DNA of 64,000 nt from Neckera pumila (taxonomy: Eukaryota > Streptophyta > Bryopsida > Hypnales > Neckeraceae), in contig OZ018412.1 in NCBI GenBank assembly GCA_963969595.1, positions 17,486,501 through 17,550,500 on the forward strand, written 5' to 3'. The notes under the pieces were generated by a model. That model worked only from the letters and a program-made list of their open reading frames with translations. It was not told where the DNA came from and did no database searches. Position 1 is the first letter of the stretch. Each line of letters opens with the position of its first letter. A program made the position numbers and the translations under genes. Shown here piece after piece: positions 13,452-47,982 of the stretch.

Positions 13452-14976
13452 TTAACCTTCATCCTTGTCTTTATTCACCTGATAGTCTTCGTGATCTTTA
13501 TAATCAACTTCTTGCTTGTTACCATTAACTACATTACCCTGCTTACCACCTTTACCATCAATATCAAACTCATAGTCTTCCAAATTATTGTCTTCTAATT
13601 TGTCACCCTCTAATTCATCATCTTCCAATTTGTGCTCTTTCAATTCATTATTCTTCAACTTGTCATCCTCCTCCATGTCTTCATCATTTAACTTGTCATC
13701 TCCCATCTCTTCTTCATCCAACTTATCAACTTCCAACTCATATTCATCCAATTCTTCTTCCTCAAACTCTTCATCTTCCATCTTGTCGTCGTTCAACTCT
13801 TCATCTTCTAATTCAATATCCTCCACCTTGTTGTCATCCAAGTTGCAATCTTCTAACTCAACATTATTCAGTTCTTCAACTTGCAATTCAATATCCTCCA
13901 ACTTCTCATCTTTTAATTTATCATCCTCCAATATATTGGCATCTAGCCATAATGCATTTTTATTATTCAATTGCTCAATATTTGAACCCGCACAATCATA
14001 AACAAGTTCAGCTCCACAAGTTATTCCTTCATTGCTTGAGATTGCATGTACCTTGGATGCCCCCTCTACTACTATAGATTTTGTCTCTTTTGATTGGTTT
14101 GATGTATCAACAGGCACATGATTTTTCTCTTCAAACTTGGCCATCTTTGATTTTAATTCTTGCATACCTTTGATCAATTCACTAATATCCATATTCCTTG
14201 AATCACCAAGCTTTGAAGTCATACGCGGTTCACTATAAGATGGTTTACCACAAGAAAGTGTAATTGGAGTTGTTTCCAGTTTAGTATCACTTACAATACT
14301 TTTATTCCTACGTCGTTATCTTTTCATAAGCAATAACACAACCCCTTCAACCTCCTTCCAATTGGTCTTTAAACCACGCTCCTCTTCCCAATCCTCCAAA
14401 AGTGGCTCAAGCATCTCTTGCAACCACGGATCTACCGCTTGTAAAAACAATTCTGTCTTCTCTACCTCCAAGGTCGCTTTTTTTTGTCCCCATCAGTTGC
14501 ACGTACTGGCGCTCAAACTCCCTCAATAGCTCGTTTGCTGACAAGCCCTTGCTTGGACGTCCAACCCACTCCAAAAACGTCCTTTTAGTCACCCTCTCCG
14601 AATCTTCCATCAAATACTCCTCCTTCAATGCTTGTGCAAAGGCCTGCCAACTGTCTTTGTCACTCGCTTGCAACTCCTTGACTCGCCCTCGGATCTCTGG
14701 AACTACAACGAGTTCAAAGCTTGCAACCATCTCATTTTTAAACACCCTTCTCAGTTCCATTTCCCTCACATAGAACCTAAGATATTTTGAAACACTTTCT
14801 CCGTCAAATTGATCCATTTTATTGACAACAGATTGCAACGCTTTTGTTACTAACGCCTCCTTTTGTTCTGCAACTTGTTGTTGCCGCATAATCATGTTCA
14901 TAGCTTCAAGCATTTTCAACATGTCATCATTCAAAATCCCACAAACATTACCTTGTTGACCATGTTGATCTTCCAT
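13452..14976 (-). pseudogene. gag: Retrotransposon gag protein, two breaks, acidic repeat tail
   Basis: From the start at 14976 about 165 residues resemble the retrotransposon gag domain (a segment starting FDGESVSKYLRFYVREMEL, then WQAFAQALKEEY and ANELLREFERQYVQL). An eight-adenine run (plus-strand T run 14478-14485) carries a one-base shift. Beyond it the other frame continues plausibly until an in-frame TAA at 14316-14318, after which the same frame runs to 13452. The final half is a low-complexity tail of alternating ELED, KLED and DDELN blocks, very rich in Glu, Asp, Leu and Asn. Gag packages the element RNA in virus-like particles. The role of the acidic tail is unknown. The long plus-strand Ser/Asn frame over this tail is its antisense shadow. 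Confidence 0.75.
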
Positions 14977-15036
14977 GACTCATTCAAAATACCACACACC
15001 ATCACTCCGAACCTTTCACGTCAGGTTCACCAAAGA

Positions 15037-30573: not shown

Positions 30574-30639
30574 ATAAGTAGTGAAATTGGGTTGCCTTAA
30601 CAACTAGGTTGCCTTATTGGGAGAAGTTACCTCATGACC

Positions 30640-30745
30640 GGGGATGCTATTTTGTGAGCCTGAAAGCCTGTGAGCCCAAAACATTTTGTAGAATTTTCAA
30701 GGAAATTTGGGGTGTGGACCTATGACCATGGAATAGGAAATTAGG
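30640..30745 (+). repeat. Left terminal inverted repeat of the MULE
   Basis: Contains TTTGTGAGCCTGAAAGCC, then TGTGAGCCC, and about 50 bp further GACCTATGACCATGGA. These correspond, inverted, to blocks in 44012-44262. Confidence 0.65.
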
Positions 30746-31733
30746 AAATTCAGAACTAGAAAATTAAATAAAAAACATCAATTTCCTAAAGAAGATATGG
30801 GGCACTGAAAATGATCATCAAATACATTTAAATAATGCTTTAGCCAATAATTATTATTATTTTTGGTCATAAGGTCACATATCAATCAAATCCAAGAAAT
30901 CGAAGAACCTTATCAATATCAAAACTGTACTACCCAAATTAGGAATTTGGGTTAGGAAATTAAACCAAATGCTTCTTCAAATTATATGGAGACTCTAATA
31001 GATACTAGAAGATCAAACGTGGGATCTAGGGCTCTTAAAGCATTTTTTTTATAGATAAAACAAAATCACCATCCATTTCTTTTTTTGTAAATATTTTTAT
31101 ATGGCACAACATAGAACTTGGAAAACCATCACATCACTAAGGATTTCCTTGCTAGATTTGAAATTTTAAACTCTCTAAGCCTCCTGCTTTAGCCCAAATT
31201 CAGACTGGAAAATTAATTACTGTTATTGGATTCATACATATTTTTGCTTCCGACTCCAATGGACATGAAATGGTGTCTCGGTACCGAGACACCTTTTATG
31301 AGTCTGGCAGTTTGGGACTCCTGAGAAAACAAGTTACAATTCCAGTTGTTTGAGAGTTAAGAAACTCCAATGTCATAGAGAAATCTGATTACCGACCAGT
31401 CATTATTCTAACAACAACGTAGTCATCCCATGAAATTGATTGATAGTGATATTATGCAAGATATATAGCATGAGTGAAAATACCGTTTTAGCTAGAGGAC
31501 CATAGAATATAAAATAACTTCTACACATTGAAGGATTTATTAATCTAAAATATATTACTTCAAGATGATAATGACTTGCATTTCACAAAAGCATGATATT
31601 GTAGTAGTAAATGTCTATGAACTAAACAAATGCCAAGAGATACACAATACCATAATAGAAGGCAAGAACAGTAAGCCGTAACAAAACATGAAATAGATAT
31701 AAAAATAGAACAGATTGAGATGAAGTTGAGTTC

Positions 31734-34700
31734 TCATGAACAATAACTACCGGTAGAGGATTTCGACATAGAACTCTCAACACTACCAGTCAACTCACTA
31801 TCAAAATCCAATGCGGAGTCATCTACAAACATCAAAACACGTGGATCTACCCGACAAGACACGCTAGATGGTTTAGGGTCATAAGTCTAAAAATCTCTAG
31901 CCATGGCCTCCGCATATGGAGGCAATTGGAATGATTTAGGAGGGCTAGACAAGAAAGTTGGGTGAGCAAATAAAGGGCAATGTAAGGGCATCTTCATTCT
32001 TTCATTTTGCCTACATAACAAATAAACGAAACATTGGAATCCAAAAAAATATGTAGTGCAAGAAATGCCATTCATAAAATAAAACAAAAACTTACTTACT
32101 AAATCAGGACTTCTTTTTGATGCGACGAACTAGAACCTCCTCATTGTCAAAATCCATCATAATAGGGTCGACAGTCACATTCTCTTGTGGCTTAGAAACT
32201 GTAGCCTCGGAGAGCAACAGTTTAAGTAAAACCTCAAATATAGAACTGTCTTCTTCCAACGCCATGATATGACGCCGAGTAGCCTGACAAACAATAATAT
32301 TTGAACCTGCATCCACAGAGGAAGAAGATATTATACTACAATACAATGCAAGTTCAACCTAAGAAGTGAAGCTAAGAAATGATCAAGAAGAATAAATTCT
32401 TGAAGGAAATCCGACCTGTTGATGCACTGCAATCCATGACCACGTCTCTAGGCAAGGTAGTTGCCTCGATTAACATTTGCAGGAATGCAAGAGCCTTCTC
32501 TCGCGGCCCCCACCAAGGTATATTTCCATTCATGGCAACGTCATCATTTCCACAAAATTTTTGAAGGATGTCATCACGATCGACGTTGATGCCTACAGCC
32601 TCATGAATTGGGACTGCCTGAAACGAGAAGCGTGATCTAGATCAACCACTTCCAGTCTTCACGTACAGTGACAGTGCAAATCGCATGGTCTGCAAAGGAT
32701 AAAAGATTAGTAATCAACTCAAGAGAACCACAAACATTACGTACTAAAGGGCAACTAGTAAATGGTGATGATTACCATGGAAGATGTATGTCCGTTGGCA
32801 ACGTCAAGTGAAGCCTATTCATAACCCACTAATCCTTGTGTGACTTGAAGCCGTAGTTATTGCAAAACGTTAGGATGTGAGACTTGATGTCCCGGCTGAA
32901 AGGATACAGGACAAGGAGTGCGCCACTGTCATGCAAATAAGCATCTGCAAATTCAAAAACAGCTTCTAATCCATCTAAAGAAAATTCGTTCCATTTCGGA
33001 ACAACATTAGATGGAGTAGAAATAGTGGGAATTGGTAAGCCCTCCGGCACGTCAAAAATGAGGAGGTCAATTGCAGCTGTTTTGGTCACAACGCCATTGA
33101 CATAACGGTCCTTGTCGGACACATGTTGCAAGCAAACAAAGCACTTGACATCATCTACTGGAATGTCGACATTTAGCTCTAAAAAGCGTATAATAAAAGA
33201 AAATCCCCTATAAAAGGATGCCAAATCAATCCAAAGCAAAAGCATTGAAGTTTAAGCGAGCTCCAAAGCATGTACCTTTTGCAAAAGTGAAAGGACATCC
33301 TTCATTGCTTGCGGAGTAGGGCCTTCCCCGTCTGGAAGAAGGGATGTCACGGACTCGTTTAGGATGCATTCATCAACATTTGCCACAGATTGCATGAAGT
33401 GGGCGATTGCTGGGGTCCTGTGCTGCAAGACATCCTGATTTAAAGAAAAGCCTGAAGAATTGTCCTTTGTAGCTACATCACTTGCCACAGGTTCCGTAGT
33501 CTCCACCTTCCGCTTCCTCCCTCCTTTCGCATCGCTTTTGGCTTTTCCTTTCTCCGCTTGTTTAGCCTTCTTCTTAGCATCATTTTCTTCATTCTTTAGC
33601 CTTGTTGATTCCAACTTCTCTTCCTTCTTCTTATTGGAAACCTCTTGGCATTTGATGGCTTTTGCTCGTGCGTCACCTTCTAGTCCCGCAAACTTGTCAA
33701 TCTCAGGTTCCACAACAACACTCTCTTTGATAGACTAGAAGAGGGCCAACTCTTGCGGCGGTATATATCCCTGGCTACAATCTAGATACCAGGCCGCCGA
33801 TTGAAGGAGCCCGCTTGGACAGTTTTTCACCTGAGAAGGTGAAAACATACAGTCCGGAGAAGACCTATCTAGCCACAAATTCAAAAACGGAGGTAGATCA
33901 ACCTTTGCAATGGCTTTCTTGGGATAAAGCTCAAGCTTGAAATACCTGAACAATAAAAACATTTGTTTCAATTTCTTAACAAAATCAGTTAAAGTAGAAT
34001 TAAGTCAAAGAACCATGACACAGGTAATAAAAAAAAAATACAAATACCTGTAAATAATCCTCTTCACCACTAGTGGAGCGCCCTTCGAATCCTTAAAGGA
34101 ATCAGACTTCTTAAAAGCATCTGCTCCTTTAAAAACACCAGGGAACGTGTGATCCCACAACTTCATGCACCAACCTTCAATGTAATTAGGTAGTAATTTA
34201 GGCTCCCCGACAACCTCCATATTGACTGGAATGTTGTCACCTCGAATGATAGCCTCATACATCTCCAAGACTGCATCCTCCATCTGTCAAAGAGAGTCGA
34301 AAAGGTAAATAGATAAAGCAGAAAAAACATTGAAGTCAGTGTAATTGAGGCAAATCAAGGTCATAACTGTCATAACTCACCCCCGCATACCAACACGCCT
34401 TTGACAAGAATGAATTAAGCTTATCCTCATTAACAGGTCGAGGAGGAAAGCAACGAGCTTCACGAGATGGTGCTGACAAGTTAATCCACTTCAGCCACTT
34501 CACTTTGTGTAGAACATCTGTGTTTGTGGTTGCTATCATCTGGAGATTTTCTAACGTCAACTCCGGCATCGCATACATACTCTAGTGCCTCTCAATCTGC
34601 CAAAATGCAAACGCAGCATTAAAACCTAAAAAGGGATCAATAAAGCATTATCATACAACGATGATCCAAATAACAATCGTACCTCTTGGAGCCATTCATC

Positions 34701-36131
34701 TCCCAATGCCGGATTAGTCACAGAGACAATCTTTGAAAGCTTCTTGTAAAGCTTGTCAATGGCATCTTTCGTAGCACTCCGCATGGCTGCTGTGATCCCT
34801 GCGTCGCACACATCTGCGGCTACAGTATCTTCATGATACTTTCGAACTGCAACATCAGAAGCTGCTGCTATCTCTTGCTGCATTATAAACAAATATATAA
34901 ATATAGAGAATTAGAAACGTAGATCCCAATACAAATGATTTATCAAAATAAAAATTATGATAACTAGCCAAATAATAAAGCAACCCAAACAATTAATCAT
35001 ACCTGAAAAATGAAAGCAGTAAACACCGCAAGAGGCATACAATACCAAGTCTTGCGAGTATTCTGCTGACAAGCCTTAATGTCATTTGCCGTCAGCAACT
35101 CATTGAACTTTTCGATTGGTAAAGAACCATACTTTCTCACACGATACAACGTATGGACAAGGTTTGTTTTGAAGTGAGAATTCTCCGTGTGCCTAATTAG
35201 AGTCAAATATAGACAACATTAGTTACATGATACAGGTAATTGACGGAATTTCAAAATTCACGGGATGAGGGAAAACTCACTTGTTGATGTCATGCATTAC
35301 TTGCATGGCTGCACCAACTCGCCCTCTTGTGTCAAGGACAATAGAATCGACAAAAATGTGCCAACTCAACTCGACACTATGAAGTCGACGTATGTGCCGC
35401 ATCCAAGCAATCGTCCGATGGTTACCATCGCATACGAAAAACTTAGCATCCACAAGATGCTTCAATTCAGCAGGCAATTTGGAATTGAAGTTGTCATTGA
35501 CAGAATTCTAGAGTTCACCCCGCTCTTCCTTCTCCGCAGGAATAAACACCCCTATCAATCCCTGTTCATCTGCAATGGAGACATAAAACACTCTTGCACC
35601 ATCTTCATAGCCGTGAACAAACTCTTGTTCCAATTTGTCAAGTCACATGCTAAGGTTGGCCGCACCATTGGCATAGGAACAAGACAACATAATGGGATGC
35701 GCAATCGTGAACGCTCTCGCGGAGTAAGCCGCAAAATTGATATCGTTGCAATGAAGTCTAGCTTCTGGGCCTTCCTAATGTCATCTTCCCCTTCAATAGC
35801 ATCTCCCTCTGAAGTCCCCCTTCCACTATCAAGATCTTCGTCATCCTCACCTTCTACAAGTATGGGAGGTTGGTCCTCCGCAATATTCTTATCAAGGTCC
35901 TCCAAAGAAGGTAGAGAAGTGTCGCCGACCTACAATTCCAGATTCAAATTTTCAACCAGAATTAGAATGTCATTAACAAGTGAATTGGGAAAAATGAAGC
36001 GTAAGAATGGAATAATGCATTTGTACACACCGACGCGTTTCCGCGAGAGGTGACTTACAGACAATGATTGGAACTTACATCTGTTTGAAGGTTCTGAATC
36101 CGTAATGCTTCTGCAGCAACTTCAACCGCAG
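31734..36131 (-). pseudogene. Accessory gene: ParB-like plus DNA methyltransferase-like protein
   Basis: A chain of minus-strand exons with mostly good GT..AG sites: 36131-36079, 35929-35281, 35192-35003, 34877-34683, 34596-34381, 34283-34048, 33945-33276, about 33202-32776, 32689-32416, 32306-32096 and 32010-31734. The product runs: acidic stretch, conserved block, FFVCDGNHRTIAW (35415-35429 encodes DGNHR, as in ParB/Srx folds), a helical region, a basic KGGRKRK segment, LIFDVPEG (placed like methylase motif IV), then VVMDCSASTGSNIIV (motif I) and HIMALEEDSSIFE. Motif IV before motif I is the permuted beta-class order of N6-A/N4-C DNA methylases. Eight in-frame stops (five TAG, three TGA) plus a probable frameshift near 35775 make it a pseudogene. 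Two exon joins (33276/33202 and 32776/32689) are unresolved. A role in modifying element DNA is inference. Confidence 0.6.
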
Positions 36132-38350
36132 CTGAAGGTAATACCTATTAAGAATCATACACATACAAGTAACGGTCAAAAATCCTACCATCATACTTGT
36201 TGTATACAATGCTAATAATGACCATAGCGAGTGGCTCAGCGCAACACTTTGAACCATCTGAAGAGCTCTCGAGACCGAGATGATGTCTTGGACTACTTCA
36301 ATCTGCAACCCCAGTGAACTGGTGCAAGCAATCACCAAATACTCATAGCTACAAACTGCAATGTATATTGGGTGTCTCATATGTTATTCCTATTATGATA
36401 TTTGACCTATAAAATTCAAGCTCAACAACCCCAAGCTTAAGAAAAGCTCTCTGCACCGAGATGAGCAATAGGAAGACATTCTCTTGCAACTAATTTGAAC
36501 TGACTTGAGCAATCACACAACTGTTACAGATAAAAATTGCTACCTACTGCAAGTGTTCGATGGGGTAATCCTTATCCTGAAACCTGACCTAAGCACGATC
36601 GGCGCAACATCGACCGGCTTAAGGAAAGCTCTCGGCACCGAGATGATCTATACAAAGTCAGTCTCTTGCGACTAATGTGAACTGACTTGAGTATTCACAC
36701 AACTGTTTCAAATAAAAAGTGCTACAAACTGCAAGTGTCTGATAGGGTTATCCATGTCTTGAAGCCTGACCTAAGCACGATCGGCGCAACATCAACCGAC
36801 TTAAGAAAAGCTCTCGACATCAAGATGAGTTGTAGGAAGATAGTCTCTTGCGACGAACGTGAACAAACTTGAGCAATCACACAACTATTACAAATGAAAA
36901 TTGCTACCTACTGCAAGTGTCTAATGCGGTTATCCTTATCCTGAAGCCTGACCTAAGCACGATCGGTGCAACATGGACATGCTTAATAAAAGCTCTCAGC
37001 ATCGAGAGAATGTGCGGGAAAGCAAAGTCTTGCAACCAATGGGAACTGCTGGGGGCGCTGAAGTATTCAACATAATTAATACTATATCGAGAATCAGAGA
37101 AGATCATGCGCCCGGATCCCAGACTTGAACAATATCGGTGCAACATCAACGATCATAAAAGAAGCTCTCGGCACCGAGAGAAGGTAACAAACAATAAGGT
37201 GTCGCAAACTGAGTGGGATAACTAAAGCAATCGCAAAACTCAGCCAAGTACATGAGTCCAACTACTTCGGGATTCAGGCCACGGTATGCCTCCTGATACC
37301 TAACATAAGTATTGTCTATGCAACAACACGGAGATATGGAAGTGCTCTCGGCACCGAGAGGAGCTATGTGGTAGCAATAGCTCGCGACCAAATGGGTTTG
37401 ATTTCAGAAATAATCAACATACTGCGCTACTTCGTATACTTTTTATTTTAACTACTTTGGGTGCGAGCCTGAGTTATCCATTTTGACCTACGACTGAACA
37501 AATTCGGCGCAACATTTACATGCTTGACATATCCTCTCGGCACCGAGAGTAGGTATTGCACGGCAACCTCTTGCAAACAAAGATAATAGTTTTGAGCAAT
37601 CAGTGAATACATGCAGCTACTTAACACGTGATAATTCGAATGTCGGACTGCATTACACCGTCTTATAATGGTTCAGTACATTATCGGCGCAATATAACCA
37701 TTTGCCAAAAACGATCGCGGCCCTGAGATAACTTTTTCTAGTACTACGACTTGCGATTTGAATATACTAAAGCGAGCAACAATGCATCGACCTTGCTCCA
37801 TACCGAAAACAGGTCCAGCCTTGGGCCCAATCATCTTAATATTGGTTTCTGAATTGACCAATTCCGGCGCGACAATATAATTCTTTCGGACTAATCCTGG
37901 ACCGAGATGAGTATTTGTTCTTACACATCATGCCACTAGAAAGACATGACGCCATTAACCCCACAAAGTATAGAAGTCTTTACTGCAACCGTTTTCAAGT
38001 GACATATTCAAACATATTACCCTAGTGTGAGGGACGAGCAATAGAGCCGCAACAACAGCAACACTCGGAAGACCTCTCGGTACCGAGATGATAAAATGGC
38101 CTTCTACACCCTGCAACCTGCCAAGCCTCCTCCAGAGCAATCACAAAAATTCCACAGCTAGATTTTGCAACGTGATCTGTGACTTTCATTCTAGAACCCT
38201 GCCTCTGGTGATTGACCAGACAACAAACGGTGCAACAGTTTGGTCATGCGGAAGCACTCTCAGCCCCGAGAGGATGTTCCGTACTTGTAGATCCTACGAC
38301 CTGAGTGAACGATTGAGAGCTCGAGACGAACATCTGATGCGAATTTCTAC
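36100..38350. repeat. Tandem array of about twelve 181-bp units with palindromic core
   Basis: Core copies start at about 36264, 36446, 36628, 36810, 36992, 37164, 37344, 37533, 37713, 37893, 38073 and 38254, a spacing of 172-189 bp, mostly 180-182. Most cores resemble CTCTCGGCACCGAGAG, an imperfect palindrome. The best are at 37164, 37344 and 37533; those at 37713 and 37893 are eroded. A second conserved block, CGGCGCAACAT, precedes the core. Units at 36446-36992 are most alike; outer ones diverge. The array lies inside the MULE, within or beside the accessory gene. It is not CRISPR (no short repeats with unique spacers). Confidence 0.85.
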
Positions 38351-38389
38351 AAGATAGGCATAGGCAGATTCCTTATGTTTTACGCTTCA

Positions 38390-39347
38390 TGAATAAGTGT
38401 ACCCTTCTTCCAGATTAGCCTCCTCACCAGACTCGTCACCAACCAACAGCACCCGATCTAGCCCCGTAATAGTGTAGCAGAAAAGACGAGAGAACTTGTA
38501 TTCATGCGGACCTGGTCGGAAGAACTTGCCGGTTGCGAAGCTGGGTCGCATTCCTCCTCCCTCCGTGCCAGACATTTTGTTCTTCTCGTCTCCATCTCCT
38601 CCACACGCGCTTGCACACTCCGAACACTAGATCGTAAGCTAAAGCGACCCTCAAGTATAGAAATGACTGTCGGGTGCAGGCTGGACCACCTGACCAAGCA
38701 CAGTTCAAGTGTTGTCTGGTCTTCAAATGCGGCTAACCAGTGCATGATGGTTTCGCAGTTACCACAAGCTTCGGATCACACACACAGCGGAAGGTGAAAC
38801 GCGAAGGGCGGCGATATTAGGGTTAACCTACAGAAGCTACGCTTATTATTTGTGGCCTTCGACTCTCGAGTAGGAGGACATCCTTCATGACTCAATGTGG
38901 TCTACATGTAAATAATTATAGATTCATTTCAGTAATCTCATGTAATGGCACAATTATGCTGTCTGATCATTTATACATTGATCCTTTGCAAACTTGAACT
39001 GAAACACTAGATCCTCGAGAACTAAAGCACGCCACATGTTAAACGTCAAAAACATTCTCTTACATTAAAATAAAGACTATGGATAAAAATGCTTTGTACT
39101 GAAGACTATAATTTCACCTTACCTGTTTATCACCTATAGAACTGTGAATGACTCTTCTACCCTGGGACAGTTTCTTAACACCCTTCTCCATACCAATGGG
39201 TGATAATGCTTGAGTAGTTTGTCTCTTCCGATTCATTCTGGCCCTTTTCAAATCCTTAGAACTAGAGAATAACAATGTGCTCTTCCTTCTCTTCTTTCTC
39301 TTACTACAATCCTCATCAGTCAGTGAATAGAGTGAGTACCTTGGCAT
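38390..39347 (-). pseudogene. Upstream minus-strand coding segments of the accessory unit
   Basis: A first exon at 39347-39123 starts MPRYSLYSLTDEDCSKRKKRRK, a basic stretch that looks like a nuclear localisation signal, and ends at a good donor (CAG/GTAAGG). A second segment, about 38840-38390, reads CETIMHWLAAFEDQTTLEL and on through RFSLRSSVRSVQARVEEM. After a shift at an AAAA run it continues as KFFRPGPHEYKFSRLFCY and DRVLLVGDESGEEANLEEG. It also has an in-frame TGA. I recognise no family. It may be the 5' part of the accessory gene, with the tandem array as a large intron, or a separate small gene. Reading phases between the segments do not fit simply. Confidence 0.4.
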
Positions 39348-40066
39348 TTAGATATCGCTTCCTACCTAAATCCTATATTTACATTACCAACAACATGCCA
39401 ATGTTTCAATACATAGCATACTACCAAATGAGAGGTTTTCTTACTCATCAGAGCATGTTAATGGTAAATAATTCAATGTAATTCGCAAATTGTGGTGGCC
39501 TAAAAATTTGAATTGTGCCTGACCTCAATGATGTCAGAATCTTGTGAATATTTGAGGTCACCATGGTTGTGAGGTCATCCATATGTTCTCCTTCTATACA
39601 TATGTTGTATTTTTATTTTGCAAGATCTCTACGATATTGTCAGTAGTTGTTTGTAACCAGATTGATGAAATATCCGCATATGGATCTCTAGATCTAACGA
39701 GTTTGTGCCTTTATTCCATTTACTAATGTTTGGAACTAAAAATCTATTGGGATTTGTCTCATTAAATGCATTGTCATTAGTAAGAAGCGATTTATGATTC
39801 AAGACATGCTACATTTGAGTTTTTTAAATTTGTAACGGCATCCTAAGCCGTTGTAGAAGAATTTCCAATTTAATTTTGATACTTTCAAAATTGAATGTGA
39901 AAGACTGATCCATTATAGTGGTTACACTTCTATTCTTGTCTAGGATATGTCTTCTACCCTAAACAGCCCTATACCTTGTTCCTTGGATTAGCGATGCTAC
40001 TCATTTTCTGCACTATTTTACTTAGTTTTTGGTCCTCAACACTTTCGTTTTTGTCAAACGTTGGCT
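39348..40066. promoter_or_regulatory. Divergent intergenic promoter region within the MULE
   Basis: About 0.7 kb separates the divergent first exons of the minus-strand accessory unit (start 39347) and the plus-strand transposase (start 40067). By position it should hold both promoters. I cannot assign TATA boxes or start sites with confidence, and I see no subrepeats of the 181-bp type in it. Confidence 0.35.
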
Positions 40067-43000
40067 ATGGCTACCATTAGAGTGGACGGCCATGAGGTGC
40101 CGTTACTTCTTCCTTTAAATGATTTAGGAATTGCTGTGGTTGAGAGTCACCTTCTTCACATACAACATGGGTTTCGTGAGTCATCTGTCTATGTAGAGGA
40201 AGAGGTTTATTCTGATTCAGGAAGTCTTCTTCACTCTGTTCTCATGTGTAAAACAAAAAGTGACGACGGATTTATGTGGAGCTTGCCGGCAGGTCAATAT
40301 AGAGCGTTTGGTTTATCTTTAGAGGCAACAGCTACCTCAATTGGGGGTTTGACACCATTGTTTGGTGCATCAAATGCACTTGATCATTTAATCAATCTAG
40401 TGAAAATAGAGCATACTAGTCCTTCTTTGTCTAATAAGCATGAGGAATCAAATCGGCTTCATAGTGGTCATTGACAGGATTATCTGAGTCTCATCTTTGA
40501 GTTATCCAGTGATTCTGAGGACGATCTTCGAGAAGTAAATTGTCTAGGTACAGCAGCTCCTAGAGGACCTGCATCTTCGGAGAAAAAGGATATGCCATTC
40601 ATTGTCTTGCGCAAAAATAGTAGTGGGAGTTCGATCCATTCACGTCTTCCTATCTATCCTATCCAGCATCAAGTCACCAGTGTCATGCCTTGTCTTACAA
40701 AGCTTGCTAGTGTTCGAGGGTCTAGGAACAAACTAGCTCATCTTGATTTTGACTCCATTGAATGTAGGAAAGTTGAATGCCTTCCAACAACATTTAATGG
40801 AGATGTTGTTTTTGAGCTCCCACCATGTCGAGCATCTGCTTCTGCGAGTTCCTCAAAGAATATGAGCGGCATGGATAAGCGCTTTGATGGTCATACTTGG
40901 TGTAGGACCATGACCTCCAACATTCACAATGACTGGGGTCTCCGATTTAGAAAGCCGTCTTGTGTTGGACATTTAGCATGCACAAATCTTGCATGTGATT
41001 ACTTGAAACGGAATTCCAAAATAAACGAGACTGAGTGGTCTGGAAATACTAGCACGCCTTTCCGCCTAGAAGCAATCCCACCAAAGGATTCAACAATCAT
41101 TTGTAAAGTTTGTAAAATGCCTCCGACTTGTATTAGTCTTTGTGATGGCAGAATTTATTATGTCATTGCTGCTCCTCACATATCGAGGGCCTGCATTCAT
41201 TTAGGCAACCATCACCATCCGGTTGCAAGTGGGTTGTGTAGGGAATCAGCGGTTGAGATCACCGAACTCATTTCACAAGAGGTAGCAAAGACCCCTACTA
41301 CAAAAATGTCTGCTATTGCTTTAGCTGCTAGCAAGGAGTTCCTAGATACGTTCCTGGTTCATACTGGTGATGGACCAAAGGAAATGCTAAAGGGGAAGGC
41401 ACTTGACGTTGTGATGGACAAGTTTCAAGTCCTCAGCTCTCCCAATGTGAGGAACATAGTTGCTTCATTTTGTAGCAGTGGACCGGGAGTGGGGGAAATT
41501 GACAGACTACTCACAATGAAGAAACAAGCTAAAATAGAATTCATTCACGATAGCATATTCACGGGCCAAGGGCAGGAGAAAGTTTACCTTTTCAAAATGC
41601 TCGTTGATGGCCCTGATAGTGGCATTGACCTTGTGAGGTGCATGCAATCTGGTGGCGATCGTGCAAACTGTTGGCTAATGTTCGACCATGTCAAACAGGT
41701 GAAGGGCTGGACTACAATCGCACGTCACGTTTATGATTTTGGATATTGCAAAGTGATGACAATTGCAGTACGCGATATGCAGCCAGAGGATACTGACGGG
41801 CAGGTCATTATGTGGAATTGTTTGAATAAAGTCATGGAGAAGAATGGACTACCTAATCCGAACTTTAAAGGATTTATAGCGAACAGCGCTCAAGCAAATT
41901 GGAATGCAGTTCGGATTGTTTATGACTCAGAAGACCCGTCCGTGAAAATGATTGATAGGGAGCGCACTTGCCTCTTTCATTGGGCTACCTCAATGAAACA
42001 ACACATTGAGAGACTTATTAAGCGGAAGTTACAAGCTCAACACATTCGTCTCTGTAGAGACTACAAGGATGCCAAGAATTTGGAGGAGGCTGAGAATAAG
42101 TATTTGCAGATAAAGGTGTGGTGGTACTCATCCGGTGTTGCATCAGAAGAATCTTTGAGGGAGCTAGAGTTGTGGTTGGCGTTTTGGCACTTCCGATATC
42201 ATCAGTGGGGCGGATTTATAGAAATTGTAAGTTTCTACACCATGTTTTCTGTATTTGATCCTCAATTGTTCTATTTTTTTTTTGATTTCATCTGAAGGTT
42301 TGTTTTTGCACACTCAGGACTTGTCTCTAGATGAATTGGCGGATATACCCTCATGCAACTTGTCAAAAACTATCCACAACAAGTGGCTATAGGCATCAGG
42401 CAAACGTGGCACCGACTTATATGTTGCAACTTGTGACTATTGGATTAGAGCCTTCATGCAGATGAGAAACTACAGAGTATATTTGAATGGGGGCCCATCC
42501 GGATTGGGACCGTCTCGCTCTGATTTAAAATTAAAGAGAGCTGTGGCATCCATGGATGGTAGGAAAATTACCGATGCTTTGTGTGCAATGCCTGGTGCTG
42601 AGGATGTCTGCACACGCGTTCCTCACTTGGAAGGGGAGGGAGTGTTTGGTTCAATGAAGAGGAAGTTTGACATACCTATAGGGTCTGAAGGTGATTCTCA
42701 TCGTCCAGACACGGTAAACTTCTCCCATCCTCGAGTGCAATCTAAGCCTGCAAATGTTCCACCTATGCATGGTGTGCATTCCAATCCACCTATGCCACAT
42801 GTGAAGCATGTGCTTGAAACGGATTGTGACCCCAATGAGTGGCACATAGCTCGGATTTCTGTGAAGTCAAAGAGAAAATGCCACGCCATTCAAGTAGAGA
42901 CAGAAATGAAGTGCAAGATGTTCATTGCCCGAGGAGCTAAAGCAACCGTTGCTCCATTGTACAAAGGGCAAAAACGCGAGTTCAAAGGCACAAAAGTAGA

Positions 43001-43691
43001 GACTGATGAGTTTTGGTTTTGTCCTGATGACATTCATCGTTGTGTGATGGGTCCAAGAAGGTCTCATGTTCTTAGTTGACCCCAAGTTCCGGAAGTTTGG
43101 CCAGTGTTGATTGGTACAAATCTCACCTTGGACGAAATCATCTTGTTTGAAGAGGCCGGATTTCGCCTTCAAGAGTGCCCTTCCATGTCTCCACGACATT
43201 TGTTTACGTCCTCCAAGCTTTTCGAGGCTGTAGAATGGACATATGCAAGACCTACTCATGCTGATAAGCCTCCATGCATTCGCAATGGGAAAAGTATTCA
43301 TAGGAATGACAAAGCACCGACTGATGATCATTGCAATCAATGGGAAAGTGCTCGAAATGTGATAGGAACAATTCTTGGAGTCAATATCATTCCTTATCCA
43401 GGACTTGGAGCTGTCATCACCCTTCAATCTGGAGTAGAGCCGCACCACAAGATTTATTGTGTCACTCTTGGCAATTTTCCATCTTGCACGTGCCTATATT
43501 TCTCCGGTATGGCATCTGCATCTCTGGGTAAGCAAGGAAAGTATGTCAATTGCAAACATCTCTATTACATTTTCCGCTATTTGTGCAAGGTGGATCTCAA
43601 AAAGGACAAGTTCATTCACGCACCAAGCTTGAGCATGCACGAGGTGATGAATCTTCTTGAGAAGGCAGGGATGATAATAAATAAGGCTTAG
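40067..43691 (+). pseudogene. MULE transposase with SWIM zinc finger, disabled
   Basis: Two exons, 40067-42226 and 42318-43691, with a 91-bp intron (GTAAGT..CAG), stay in one frame if three premature stops are read through: TGA 40472-40474, TAG 42390-42392 and TGA 43077-43079. The order is: N-terminal domain; a Cys/His region (ICKVCKMPPTC, CDGRIYY, CIHLGNHHHPV) like FLYWCH/WRKY-GCM1 fingers; a MULE core including GFIANSAQANW and CLFHWATSMKQHIERL (CxxH motif); and a C-terminal SWIM finger (PSCTCLYF ... VNCKHLYY). Such enzymes bind the inverted ends and catalyse cut-and-paste transposition. Where a catalytic Asp is expected the sequence has Asn (41882-41884), itself a possible G-to-A decay. The start is the first ATG in frame. 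Confidence 0.8.
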
Positions 43692-44011
43692 TATTTGAAT
43701 GTAAGCGTTGAATAGCTTTAAAATAGAGTACTTCAAACATTTTTTCCCTATATGTATTCTGATTTTCTTGAATACATTCATTGTAAGAAGTTTTTGAGGT
43801 TATCTGGACTATACCAAAGAATCTTATATTATTCGATTTTATGGTAATCTTTTTTGTTATTACAGTATGGTCATTCTATGGATTATGGCAGATACTACTA
43901 GTTTGTGTATACACATCCTTTTTTAATTTTCTAAAGGTTTTTTATCTGTCCAAAATATATGCATAAGAATCTTTGATTCATTTTACTTTCTATTTTTATC
44001 ACCAATAGGTC

Positions 44012-44262
44012 CTTGGTTGACAATCCATGGTCATAGGCTCTCCCTAATAGGTCTGTGGTAACATCCACGGTTATAGGTCTGGTATTCTACATTTCAACAT
44101 GTCTAAAAATATTTCAAAATATTTTCAATATTTTTCCACAAAAAAATTGAAAATTTGCTATATTTCCAAGTTTGATCTATAGGCTCGCAAAAGATAGGCT
44201 CGCAAAAGATAGGCTCGCAGCTCTCAAGTTCACAATTTTAGGCTCACAAACTAGCGTCATTG
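44012..44262 (-). repeat. Right terminal inverted repeat of the MULE
   Basis: Inverted, it carries TTTGTGAGCCTAAAA at the tip and CCTATGACCATGGA further in, as in the left end. It also holds three tandem copies of a motif close to AGGCTCGCAAAAGAT (about 44180-44222), which could be subterminal transposase-binding repeats. Confidence 0.6.
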
Positions 44263-44272
44263 CCTCATGACC

Positions 44273-44588: not shown

Positions 44589-44989
44589 GTTTTTGTGACG
44601 CTTTTTGGTCTCGGCAGAGGTTCGATTATGGGTGTACATTCGAAATACAATACAAAGTTGAGTGTGTTTGTTTCTTATACCCGAACTTTATACCTGGATT
44701 GTAAACCTTCGAAATCCACCACATACCCGCTGCTTGGGTTTCACGTCTCCTTGCTGAAGCTGCAGACAGTGATCGCGCGTCATATTGACTTGGCTATGGA
44801 CTTCGATTTGCAACCATTGAACGTGAAATCTAAGAAATTCTATGTGCCATTACGTGCAGTCACTACTGACTTCTGAATCCTTTCGTGAAGCTCTTCGATT
44901 TGGTGCAAGATTTGTTGCTGGGTTTCGGATTGCAGGACAGTGCCAGAGGTTCTCTATCATTGTGCAAGTCGGTGGAGCATCCCTTCGTC

Positions 44990-47982
44990 ATGGAAGGGGG
45001 AGATGACCATGCCCTGGGAAGGCGTCTTGGGAGGGTGTGTGTCCTCGGAGACGACGAAGACGACGATGGGGAAGGGAAAAAGGAAGGGCCGAGAAAAATT
45101 TATGATCTCGGGGACGATGCGCTGGTCTGCGTTTTGTCCTTCCTCTCGCCTCCGGACATTGATGAATGTAGTCGCGTCAGCCAGCGCTTGCGTGGTCTTT
45201 GCCGGGACGAGGACAAGGTGGGCTGTAGAGTTGTGGCTTCTTTTTTTCGTTTGTGAATTTTTCTTTGTTTTGGCGGTAATGGTCAAGAAACCCTAATTAG
45301 GGGTGTTGGGAGACAAACAGTCGCGTGCAAGGAGGTTGGGGTGAAAGTCCTACTTTTTTGGTTTTAGACTGTTGGGAGAAGCGTCGTCGGATGCAATGTG
45401 ATTCGAGGCGCCTGATAAGGATACGAATATTGCATGTTACGTGAGCTGTTTGAATTTACGTCAATACGAATGTAAGGATCTAGGTCACGCTTGCGGATGG
45501 TGAATGTATTAAATCCTCATAGAAAATGCATGCACATTGCTATGGATTATTTCTTTAGTGTTTTGAGACATGTGGTACTGGTAGCTGTACATGTTTTTAA
45601 GTTTTAGGGTTAGATAAGGTTGGAGGACTGAAGCATTTCTTGAGAGAAGTTCATTGGCTTTCATGCCTTGTAAATCCATAGGTACATCGTCGTTACTCAG
45701 TTAGTAAGGCTGAGGATTCTATTTGCTTCACTTTAAGCATTTTTATGTTTGTAAGGTGGAATTTGGGGCGAAAAGTGTAGAGCTTTGAAGAGATCTTTGG
45801 GTATAAGAGCCAAGTATTGAGTATGAGAGCCATTGGAGACCGAATTTCTAAAACTTTGTATGAATTCCTTGTACAATTTCCAAATCGGGAGGTTTTAGAC
45901 GACTGTAAGATACAGTAGACCGCCCCCATTTCTATTCAAAGATCAGTGGCATAGACATTTAGCCAAGGCATGCTTACACCCCTTGCTAATGTATGAGTAG
46001 ATGGGTTGCTGATGGTAACAGGTGTCAGTCAATAGGAGACGGGATCAGACCCTTAACGGTTTTAGTGTATACCTTATTTGTAGGTGTGGTATCCAATGTG
46101 TGAACGCCAATTCGGGAGATTCACGAATGTCCGTGACTGGTGGGGTTGCGGACGTGTATCATACAAGACTGTTTACAAGGTTCTGTCCCATTTCGAAAAC
46201 TTGGTGGGATTCTGGAGGGGAGTTGGGAACGGGTGCCATGGCTCCCTTGTAGCATTTGAATGGCATTCGTTCAAACTTGTGGGTTATCGAGTTATACCTG
46301 CACGACTAGGCTCCTACAAAGTGCGCAAAGTACCCTTCATAGAAATTGGTTGGATTGGCTTGTCGGACAAGGAAATGCCGGTTTGCCTTCTAGATCCCGA
46401 TTGGGCACAGCTTGTTCCAGGGCTTCACGATGATGAGAGTATTAAGAATGGAGTGACTGGGTCCCCTTTATCTCGGCCTTTGCAGATTCCTGTCTCTCCA
46501 TCAAGGAAGGCTGCTAGTACTTCGCAAGGTAGGCTTCGTCAGTTCCTCTCTCTATTCTCAACTTATTTCGTTTTGATTTGGCCAGTTTTAACTCTAAAAG
46601 AGCTGATTTAAGGAACTTGTAAGATTACAGATGTGGAGTTCCGCCAAGTAGACATTCTGCAGCGCAGACTGCGTGCCACGTGATGACAAATAAGGCTGGC
46701 CCTCTTTGTGACAGGAAGAGTCAGTCCCTTTGAAGCATTAGGGCCAGATTGGACTCTGGAGGACCCTACTCCTGCTGGCCTGGTTGTCGTGGACCTCCAC
46801 TTCGTAGGAAGTGAACACGTTGTCTTTGAAGAGTATCAGCAGGCTATCTTCAGCGGGTATCCGTTTTCAGGCAGGAAAACTCTGGTCGAGGCAGCAGCTT
46901 TGGCGTCCTTTGGATCGAGTGAGAATTTGTGTCCAGCTGGAGGAAGCCCCGGACGCCATAGCCCAGCCAGCTCTGGAGGTGGTTCAGATGCGGGGAAAAG
47001 CCCTCCCGGCAGTTTCCCGTATGAGATGTACCACTATCTGGCTAAGAAAGTCACGAGTCCTGGTGGTGAGCGCGCTGCTCGTAAGCAGAGGAGAAGAGAC
47101 AGGGATCGGGCTTTAACTCAAGGCAGGCATCGTTATGAATCTGAGCATTTTGTAAAGATTCCTCACTTCTGTCCGACGAGGGAGCAGCCACTTCAGGGCC
47201 TTTGGAAGGTACGCTATTTCATGATACTTCAGGCACTTCATTTTGTGGATGCTTCAGAGGAGGGTACCAAGGATTACGTTTCTATCTAAATTTGTATGTG
47301 TGATTCCACACTCTTTCAGGAACTGTCATTGTCACAGTAGTCAGTGAGTGATACAATGTCGATCTTGAGACTCTTGAGATTGACGCATTTCATTGCACTA
47401 AGTTAGGGAACCTGAAAGCCAAGGAAAAATGTGGCTAATAGTGGGGATTTGGGACACTTCGGATTTGGAAGTTATCATCTTTGAAAGAAACTGATAATAC
47501 TGTTGCTGGTGTTGCAGGGCATCAGCCACAAGAGTGGACTGGATTTCGTCGTCCTCTCTTACGATGACCGGGGTGGCATCATCTGTCGAAAGGTGGGCGA
47601 CTCGTTGGGGATGACGCGTAGTGGCTCCGTGTGTTGGACTGCCAAAGTCGGTCATGGCATGTCCGCCCCCTTGCCCGACACTGAACAGCAACTCTTTGAG
47701 CTCAGGCAACACATACTTCCATCATCATTCCAAGGCGACCCGGGCTTCCCCGTCGAGGCTTGGAACGAGGAGGTCGTAGGAATGCTTTGGGTCACTGTCG
47801 AAGTTCAACAACTGGGGTTGAACTATAATGTGGGTGGGGTCGAGGACGTGACCCTCAGCCGGGTGTGGCAGTATGCTAGTGGGAGGTTTGGCTTCGGCAA
47901 TGGTCCTGATGGGCGGGTTGTGGACTTTAGACCAATTTGTATCAAAGACAATTTAGCTGATGTAGTGGATCTAAGCTCGTGA
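44990..47982 (+). CDS. F-box protein, At3g12350/At5g39450-like
   Basis: Four exons, 44990-45217, 46084-46528, 46715-47208 and 47518-47982, join in frame with GT..AG introns to 543 residues. An acidic N-terminus (DDEDDD) leads to an F-box at about residues 38-82 (YDLGDDALVCVLSFLSPPDI ... LCRDEDKVWYPMCERQF). The long C-terminal part is typical of this plant group: YKTVYKVL, GFWRG, LVAFEW, then a final region with GLDFVVLSYDDRGG and WTAKVGH. F-box proteins recruit targets to SCF ubiquitin ligases by binding SKP1; the target is unknown. The subfamily is named from overall resemblance. I chose ATG 44990. An in-frame ATG at 44885 is possible, but the stretch between them resembles the UTR of the gene at 59.8 kb. 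The gene looks intact, and the MULE ends about 0.7 kb upstream. Confidence 0.85.

Follow-up and report, generated by a model that had tools for sequence, protein, structure and literature searches.

To our knowledge, a second gene is carried by Mutator-like elements (MULEs) in few known cases, among which VANC alone has a worked-out anti-silencing role. The autonomous MuDR element of maize contains two convergent genes, mudrA and mudrB, and the latter, for which a role as a reinsertion or transposition factor has been proposed, is not known to have a ParB or methylase-like domain. ParB–methylase fusion proteins exist, and the bacterial parS sites are palindromic. As described in two reports, VANC binds short motifs in tandem repeats of the non-coding regions of VANDALs, and these repeats turn over fast, with different VANCs having different motifs (PMC5735166, PMC10398659). 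Here we describe a 13.6-kb element in a 64,000-bp stretch of the bryophyte Neckera pumila (GCA_963969595.1, contig OZ018412.1, at C5:17486501-17550500 of the 18-contig, 339.5-Mb genome; hereafter the window), which encodes a transposase on one strand and, on the other, an accessory protein that resembles ParB and DNA methylases. The results support the proposal, first raised by a sequence-only reading of the window, that the element represents an undescribed MULE lineage with a ParB/DNA-methylase-like gene travelling along. In titles and abstract openings, with most subscription journals outside the scope of the search, no MULE with a ParB or methylase-like gene was found; methyltransferase, methylase and moss are not mentioned in a survey of MULEs (PMC6446971), nor are Mutator, transposase, land plant and moss in a survey of N6-methyladenine (PMC12695648).

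A divergent two-gene transposon and its copies

The element (30640–44262, without strand) belongs to the Mutator-like DNA transposons as a divergent member with two genes; its ends are inverted, its target duplications measure 9–10 bp, and it is delimited by its target-site duplication (TSD), its ends and four more full-length copies with TSDs of their own. The sequence CCTCATGACC stands exactly at 30630–30639 and 44263–44272 and does not occur again on either strand of the window, so the duplication reported from sequence alone held up. The left repeat can be written CCTCATGAC(C), in which the final C may be the element's own first base, and judged by eye against the four other copies, the left boundary lies at either 30639 or 30640, a shift of no more than one base. 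The inverted ends, at 30643–30665 (plus strand) and 44236–44258 (minus strand), are related as had been claimed, matching at 20 of 23 positions, whereas 2000 pairs of segments drawn at random from the window matched at 16 at most. Near the two ends, and inverted relative to each other, lie six of the eight occurrences of TGYGAGCC in the window and all three of CCTAT(G/A)ACC(A/G)TGGA. By eye, the TSD is 9–10 bp long in all five full-length copies, which fits the ~9–11 bp of MULEs; terminal inverted repeats, another MULE feature, are present, with related ends in the other copies, and are short by comparison with the ~200-bp repeats of maize Mu.

Each of the five full-length copies contains both the transposase and the accessory gene and has its own TSD, those of the other four reading, by eye, AAACAAAGAG, CTAGGATAC(C), AAATAAAAAA and TTCAATGAC. 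These four were among five other genome matches to the left end; the fifth, C1a, extends over no more than the leftmost 617 bp, at 95% identity, and appears from its sequence to be a truncated or non-autonomous derivative. Termini without the accessory gene had been named beforehand as a sign of chance adjacency; for the left end, this was seen in the short C1a match only, and the association was not refuted. Among the five full copies, the accessory gene is 86–96% identical and the transposase 91–98%. Relative to the diverged copy C1b, the ratio of nonsynonymous to synonymous substitution rates (dN/dS; Nei–Gojobori, own script) is 0.27–0.30 for the accessory gene and 0.22–0.27 for the transposase, and the accessory introns differ by 0.22–0.24, compared with 0.10–0.11 for the exons. 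The low accessory dN/dS and the greater divergence of introns than exons therefore indicate that selection acted on the accessory protein while transposition was still taking place. The four younger copies gave ratios of 0.45–0.93, expected where post-insertion decay dominates.

The pairing of the two genes is also seen in other families. The accessory protein, translated with X at stops, has a relative in Ceratodon purpureus (M758_1G295400, 1147 amino acids, hereafter P0121; 28% identity over 97% of the query), which is the single full-length database relative among the candidates scored. With P0121, at least 40 further loci with the ParB-like exon were found in the genome (best 40 of 1256 candidates). 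For four of them, picked for openness and diversity before the flanks were seen, 8 kb upstream was fetched, and all four have a divergent transposase. The transposase list comprises 118 loci (from the best 61 of 881 and the best 58 of 873 candidates, leaving out two fragments of listed loci and one row on C12). By coordinates, 14 of the 40 listed accessory loci lie within 12 kb of a divergent transposase on this list, versus a mean of 0.10 and a maximum of 2 in 2000 random placements, for which the length of C9 was guessed. One more came from fetching, which brings the count to at least 15 of 40; the remaining 25 do not count as negatives, since the lists contain best-scoring loci only. Two accessory loci have a same-strand transposase row within 12 kb. 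In the reverse direction, three of three transposase loci, all from one family (92–97% alike) for which the accessory list has no hit, are accompanied by a divergent accessory gene. The expectation that the two genes travel together was supported by the full copies, by these 15 of 40 loci and by the one family examined in reverse, and several families in the genome share a layout in which divergent genes flank a ~4-kb palindrome-bearing intergenic region, with palindromes that differ.

The transposase gene (40067–43691, plus strand) has one intron (42227–42317) and three in-frame stops. Its main exon (40067–42226), with TGA at 40472–40474, holds GCM-like and RNase H-like parts, as judged by its relative P0001, and exon 2 (42318–43691), with TAG at 42390–42392 and TGA at 43077–43079, holds a putative SWIM-like zinc finger. 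The 121 protein-database relatives reach 66% identity over 92% in the best of them, P0001. An AlphaFold2 model of P0001 (mean predicted local distance difference test score [pLDDT] 79, predicted template modelling score 0.49) has ISCth4, of the IS256 family, as all of its top three PDB matches (E 1.5e-4 to 4.6e-4, with low TM-scores of 0.17–0.36) and a GCM domain at rank 5 (E 2.3e-3), a combination that we take to be what a MULE transposase should show. On this model, the predicted fold agrees with the RNase H-like, IS256-related transposase of MULEs. A SWIM-containing MULE transposase had been proposed from the sequence; the transposase and its strand were upheld, together with an IS256-like predicted fold, whereas the SWIM finger, which is common but not universal at the C-terminus of MULE transposases, matches Pfam only under the cut-off (E 0.054, 13.5 bits against 19.6). 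The MULE profile search that had been suggested was negative, with no Pfam MULE profile matching at E 0.1 and Transposase_mut found in one of 53 relatives only (E 0.034); Pfam, NCBIfam and PDB sequence searches with the transposase likewise gave nothing usable. We take the missing match as a gap in profile coverage and do not regard such a match as a defining property. In a GTDB scan, a 4.1-kb contig of a cyanobacterial metagenome-assembled genome (CADCWO010000080.1) was seen to encode a 44% identical transposase; this contig is probably eukaryotic contamination.

The window copy itself is decayed, with stops in both genes and a frameshift in the accessory gene. At 43920–43924, it lacks ~420 bp that include the right subterminal palindrome and are present in all four other full copies, and it is also without a short piece near the left end that the other full copies have.

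Structure and domains of the accessory gene

The accessory gene lies on the minus strand, from about 36144 to 31734, in 11 recognised exons with one frameshift and several in-frame stops. The first recognised exon (36079–36144; start codon not identified) is followed by the exon with the ParB/sulfiredoxin (Srx)-like domain and its DGNHR motif (35281–35929), which is frameshifted in the window copy, and then by an exon reading ENSHFK...NLVHTL (35003–35192), by exons at 34683–34877, 34381–34596 and 34048–34283, and by one that includes a Lys-rich linker (33276–33945). The methylase-like part follows, with the motif IV position (DVPEG) at 32776–33176, motifs X/I (PWWGPREK..., VVMDCSASTG) at 32416–32689 and the end of the domain (ALEED) at 32096–32306, and the last exon (31734–32010) encodes a Ser/acid-rich tail, with similar tails in the loci L056 and L057. 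This exon structure is supported because nine accessory exons of C1b, when joined, give 1013 codons with a single stop. A start of exon 8 at 33178 was replaced by 33176, which puts the junction in frame. Several in-frame TAGs occur in the window's accessory gene; a nuclear code with TAG as Gln was rejected because TGA interrupts both genes and the other copies are open there or broken elsewhere, and decay after silencing is enough to explain the in-frame stops.

In both searches with the accessory protein, scoring was confined to the 7993 candidates that had the most words in common with the query, and the taxonomic range found for the protein is therefore a lower bound. A two-sequence profile search adds two Riccia sorocarpa proteins (P0122 and P0123), which match the ParB and helical parts; the methylase match is absent from both, either because they are truncated models or because their lineage lacks the domain. 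The named relatives come from one moss and one liverwort species. No relative was found in the viral contigs searched, and phage records gave partial methylase-region matches only (best 20 of 264 rows).

The ParB-like assignment made from the sequence is supported by the predicted fold, which is of the ParB/Srx type; ParB was not found by Pfam in the accessory protein. In a Foldseek search of the PDB with a model of the ParB exon (mean pLDDT 71), ranks 1–30 contained only Noc, PadC, ParB, sulfiredoxin (or its complex with peroxiredoxin) and SbnI, which we take to have a ParB/Srx-type fold as well. Among 21 aligned ParB-exon sequences, G-N-H of the DGNHR motif is invariant and D and R are kept in at least 90%, and the motif resembles the GxxR box of ParB. 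When exons of the ParB and methylase parts were aligned together, the pieces of the methylase ended up in wrong positions, and this alignment was kept out of folding.

For the methylase-like part, the N6_N4_Mtase profile is weak on the window's own exons (E 0.27 and 0.0014) and stays under the cut-off of 26.7 bits in the window family (19 and 21.6 bits), and is significant on the full-length homologue P0121, where PF01555 exceeds the cut-off over residues 903–1119 (E 4.9e-7, 30.4 bits); P0121 also matches PHROG methylases. Together with the 11 exons and the predicted fold, this match substantiates the multi-exon ParB-like/methylase-like gene that had been read from the sequence. In canonical enzymes, motif IV is (D/N/S)PP(Y/F/W). 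The window family has DVPE (window, C11a and C1b), DVSE (C10) or DVPK (C11b), C10 and C11b being decayed, and other families have DYPD (L052–L054), NIPD (L055) and DVPE (L056 and, likewise, L057), so that the aromatic residue is lost in all five families examined in this genome; P0121 has DTPF. The stretch P(D/E)(G/N)-(L/F)-x-VP beside motif IV is conserved, and the site therefore seems to have been maintained but changed. In motif I, the first Gly of FxGxG is lost in the window family, the L052-type and L056, with L055 not clearly read. Judged by these motifs, the domain is probably a pseudo-methylase for DNA or cofactor binding, and DNA methylation by the accessory protein is doubtful; a methyl mark is unsupported because motif IV is degenerate in all five families. 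The earlier idea that the element has its own DNA-modification gene thus survives as regards a methylase-like domain and is weakened as regards modification.

Palindromes between and beside the genes

In our view, the strongest clue to function is a palindrome array in the intergenic region, on which the sequence-only reading was silent. The array (36192–38370) is made up of 12 units, ~181 bp in length, all of which contain TCTCGGNNCCGAGA in intact or decayed form (within three mismatches in 11 of the 12), and the rest of the intergenic region, defined by position only, extends over 38371–40066. Most pairs of units are just 40–60% identical (range 0.40–0.82), with TCTCGGNNCCGAGA and a few other boxes, the latter recognised by eye, being kept. 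At up to three mismatches, the element contains 12 occurrences of TCTCGGNNCCGAGA, 11 of them in the array, and the remaining 50 kb of the window contain one. A perfect 22-bp palindrome, GGTGTCTCGGTACCGAGACACC, is placed near the left end (31272–31293) and has a counterpart in all four other full copies, which contain 9–12 array palindromes and one near each end; in these four, the subterminal sites are 655–662 bp from the left and 568–570 bp from the right end. The array of C1b has no blastn match to that of the window, with flanks ~88% identical, and the retention of the palindrome despite this turnover is a footprint of selection. The observed/expected CpG ratio is 0.83–0.93 in the array versus 0.58–0.62 in the rest of the element (four of the five full copies computed), as expected if the array is kept unmethylated.

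Across the genome, the TCTCGGNNCCGAGA pattern has 414 matches, compared with 3 for a reversed control. Among the first places listed, which are all on C1, many form clusters (e.g., C1:1603769-1607034), often in ~285-bp steps, and these clusters probably mark further elements. The C1a stretch (C1:49389300-49409299) shows no palindrome within three mismatches in the next 13 kb.

Different families have different palindromes, of at least five types. These include TGACCTCGTTAACGAGGTCA about every 114 bp in L048, TCTCGGGCCCGAGA with a spacing of 284/338 bp in L049, the irregularly spaced GAACCCCGCGG-type in L051 and GCCGTTAACGGC at multiples of about 97 bp in L052–L054. In a screen of 30 accessory loci, which are not independent since several families have several copies, 15 had, within 1.5 kb upstream of the ParB exon, a palindrome present three times or more, whereas none of 30 downstream controls and none of 900 shuffles did.

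Outside the element, about 600 bp past its right end, an open reading frame with an F-box (Pfam PF00646, E 2.7e-6; 44870–45253, plus strand) is probably a host gene adjoining the insertion. Long open reading frames are also present at 13452–14979 (minus strand), of which one consists of a repetitive acidic sequence and another, by eye, resembles gag.

Comparison with described systems and possible function

The element resembles VANDALs in being a MULE with an extra gene, and in having repeated non-coding motifs that turn over rapidly and are family-specific; it differs in that the motifs are palindromes, spaced at ~97–311 bp where regular, and that the protein is ParB/Srx- and methylase-like, with motif binding and anti-silencing as putative properties. 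No VANC-type family (DUF1985 or relatives) was among the Pfam hits of the accessory protein, and because no VANC domain was found, membership of VANDALs is not claimed. MuDR likewise has two genes per autonomous element, and these are convergent there and divergent here. A ParB/Srx fold and palindromic sites that recur on the DNA carrying the protein's own gene recall ParB–parS and Noc systems, whereas here the carrier is a eukaryotic transposon, with neither a helix-turn-helix domain nor ParA identified. Finally, the beta-class-like order of the methylase motifs, following the motif-order scheme of amino-methyltransferases, and the PF01555 and PHROG matches of P0121 are shared with N6_N4 phage methylases and ParB–methylase fusions, in contrast to which motif IV is degenerate here and the protein is ~1000 amino acids long and encoded by a multi-exon nuclear gene.

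We favour, with a probability of about 0.55, a VANC-like self-recognition, although by domains unrelated to those of VANC, in which the ParB–pseudomethylase protein targets the palindromes of its own element, thereby opening the promoter or the ends or tuning expression. The accessory protein would be a sequence-specific DNA-binding regulator; its ParB-like fold, possibly nucleotide-gated, and its largely non-catalytic methylase-like domain would be loaded onto the array and the individual subterminal sites. Such loading may keep the shared divergent promoter and the ends open against host DNA methylation, and the protein may also, or instead, tune its own expression and that of the transposase. 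This reading is based on the presence of both genes in five of five copies, on selection and linkage, on conserved family-specific palindromes and their CpG content, on the predicted ParB/Srx fold and on the VANC precedent. Several points weigh against it. The palindromes may be bound by the transposase or a host factor and not by the accessory protein; the CpG excess could just reflect CG-containing motifs; and the ParB-exon model, at pLDDT 71, gave fold matches with E 0.014 or worse (best Noc, probability 0.99) and none at E 0.001. In addition, 15 of the 30 accessory loci lack such a recurrent palindrome (three or more occurrences) within the 1.5 kb covered, and L050, with a longer upstream stretch, has no clear array. 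Of these 15 loci, L045 proves to have an array of 12 copies once more upstream sequence (L049) is considered, and L047 shows that motif twice; for most of the others, the view was confined to the 1.5 kb.

The readings that compete with VANC-like self-recognition are not exclusive of it or of each other, and their likelihoods need not sum to one. Its most far-reaching form, which we put forward tentatively, would be a ParB–parS-like system in eukaryotic transposons, where a nucleotide-gated ParB clamp with a pseudo-methylase reader would load at family-specific palindromes of the array and the ends, spread, exclude silencing and mark self, with protein and palindrome co-evolving and many families coexisting. 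It is similarly conceivable, without being our preference, that the accessory protein is a transposition factor acting in end synapsis, target choice or reinsertion, and that the palindromes load it or the transposase; the near-fixed distance of a palindrome from each end in all four other full copies would suit such a role, as would selection on the accessory gene like that on the transposase, but 9–12 of the 11–14 sites per full copy (five copies, up to three mismatches) are central and intergenic rather than terminal, and the ends possess a repeated motif of their own, TGYGAGCC.

Derived from the idea of the sequence-only reading, a role as an active N4-cytosine or N6-adenine methyltransferase, by which the palindromes would be marked to make the element recognisable as self or to protect it, seems unlikely. 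The loss of the motif IV aromatic residue in five of five families and of the first Gly of motif I in the window family, the L052-type and L056 argues against activity. In its favour, the Pfam match of P0121 exceeds the cut-off across the entire domain (903–1119 of 1147), and that protein still has an aromatic residue (DTPF); every family read has preserved D or N and one P of motif IV; L057 retains GxG in motif I (DWQCGLG); and methylases often use palindromes. Slightly less likely still is that the array is a conserved promoter or enhancer bound by a host transcription factor and that the ParB–methylase protein has an unrelated role. Its position between divergent genes would fit this, and its tie to the accessory protein is a putative one; however, a single host factor should have one site, and the motif varies among families within this genome, and palindromes also occur as single subterminal sites. 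Although MULEs do capture genes, chance adjacency or a captured host gene is highly improbable, being contradicted by the linkage and selection results.

If the favoured reading of VANC-like self-recognition is right, a bryophyte transposon has apparently arrived at an independent solution to self-recognition and control, built from bacterial-type ParB and methylase domains. The palindromes, of at least five types, would provide a natural series of candidate protein–site pairs for the study of how self-recognition and escape from silencing evolve, and the element may represent a possible case of a ParB-like clamp in the eukaryotic nucleus.

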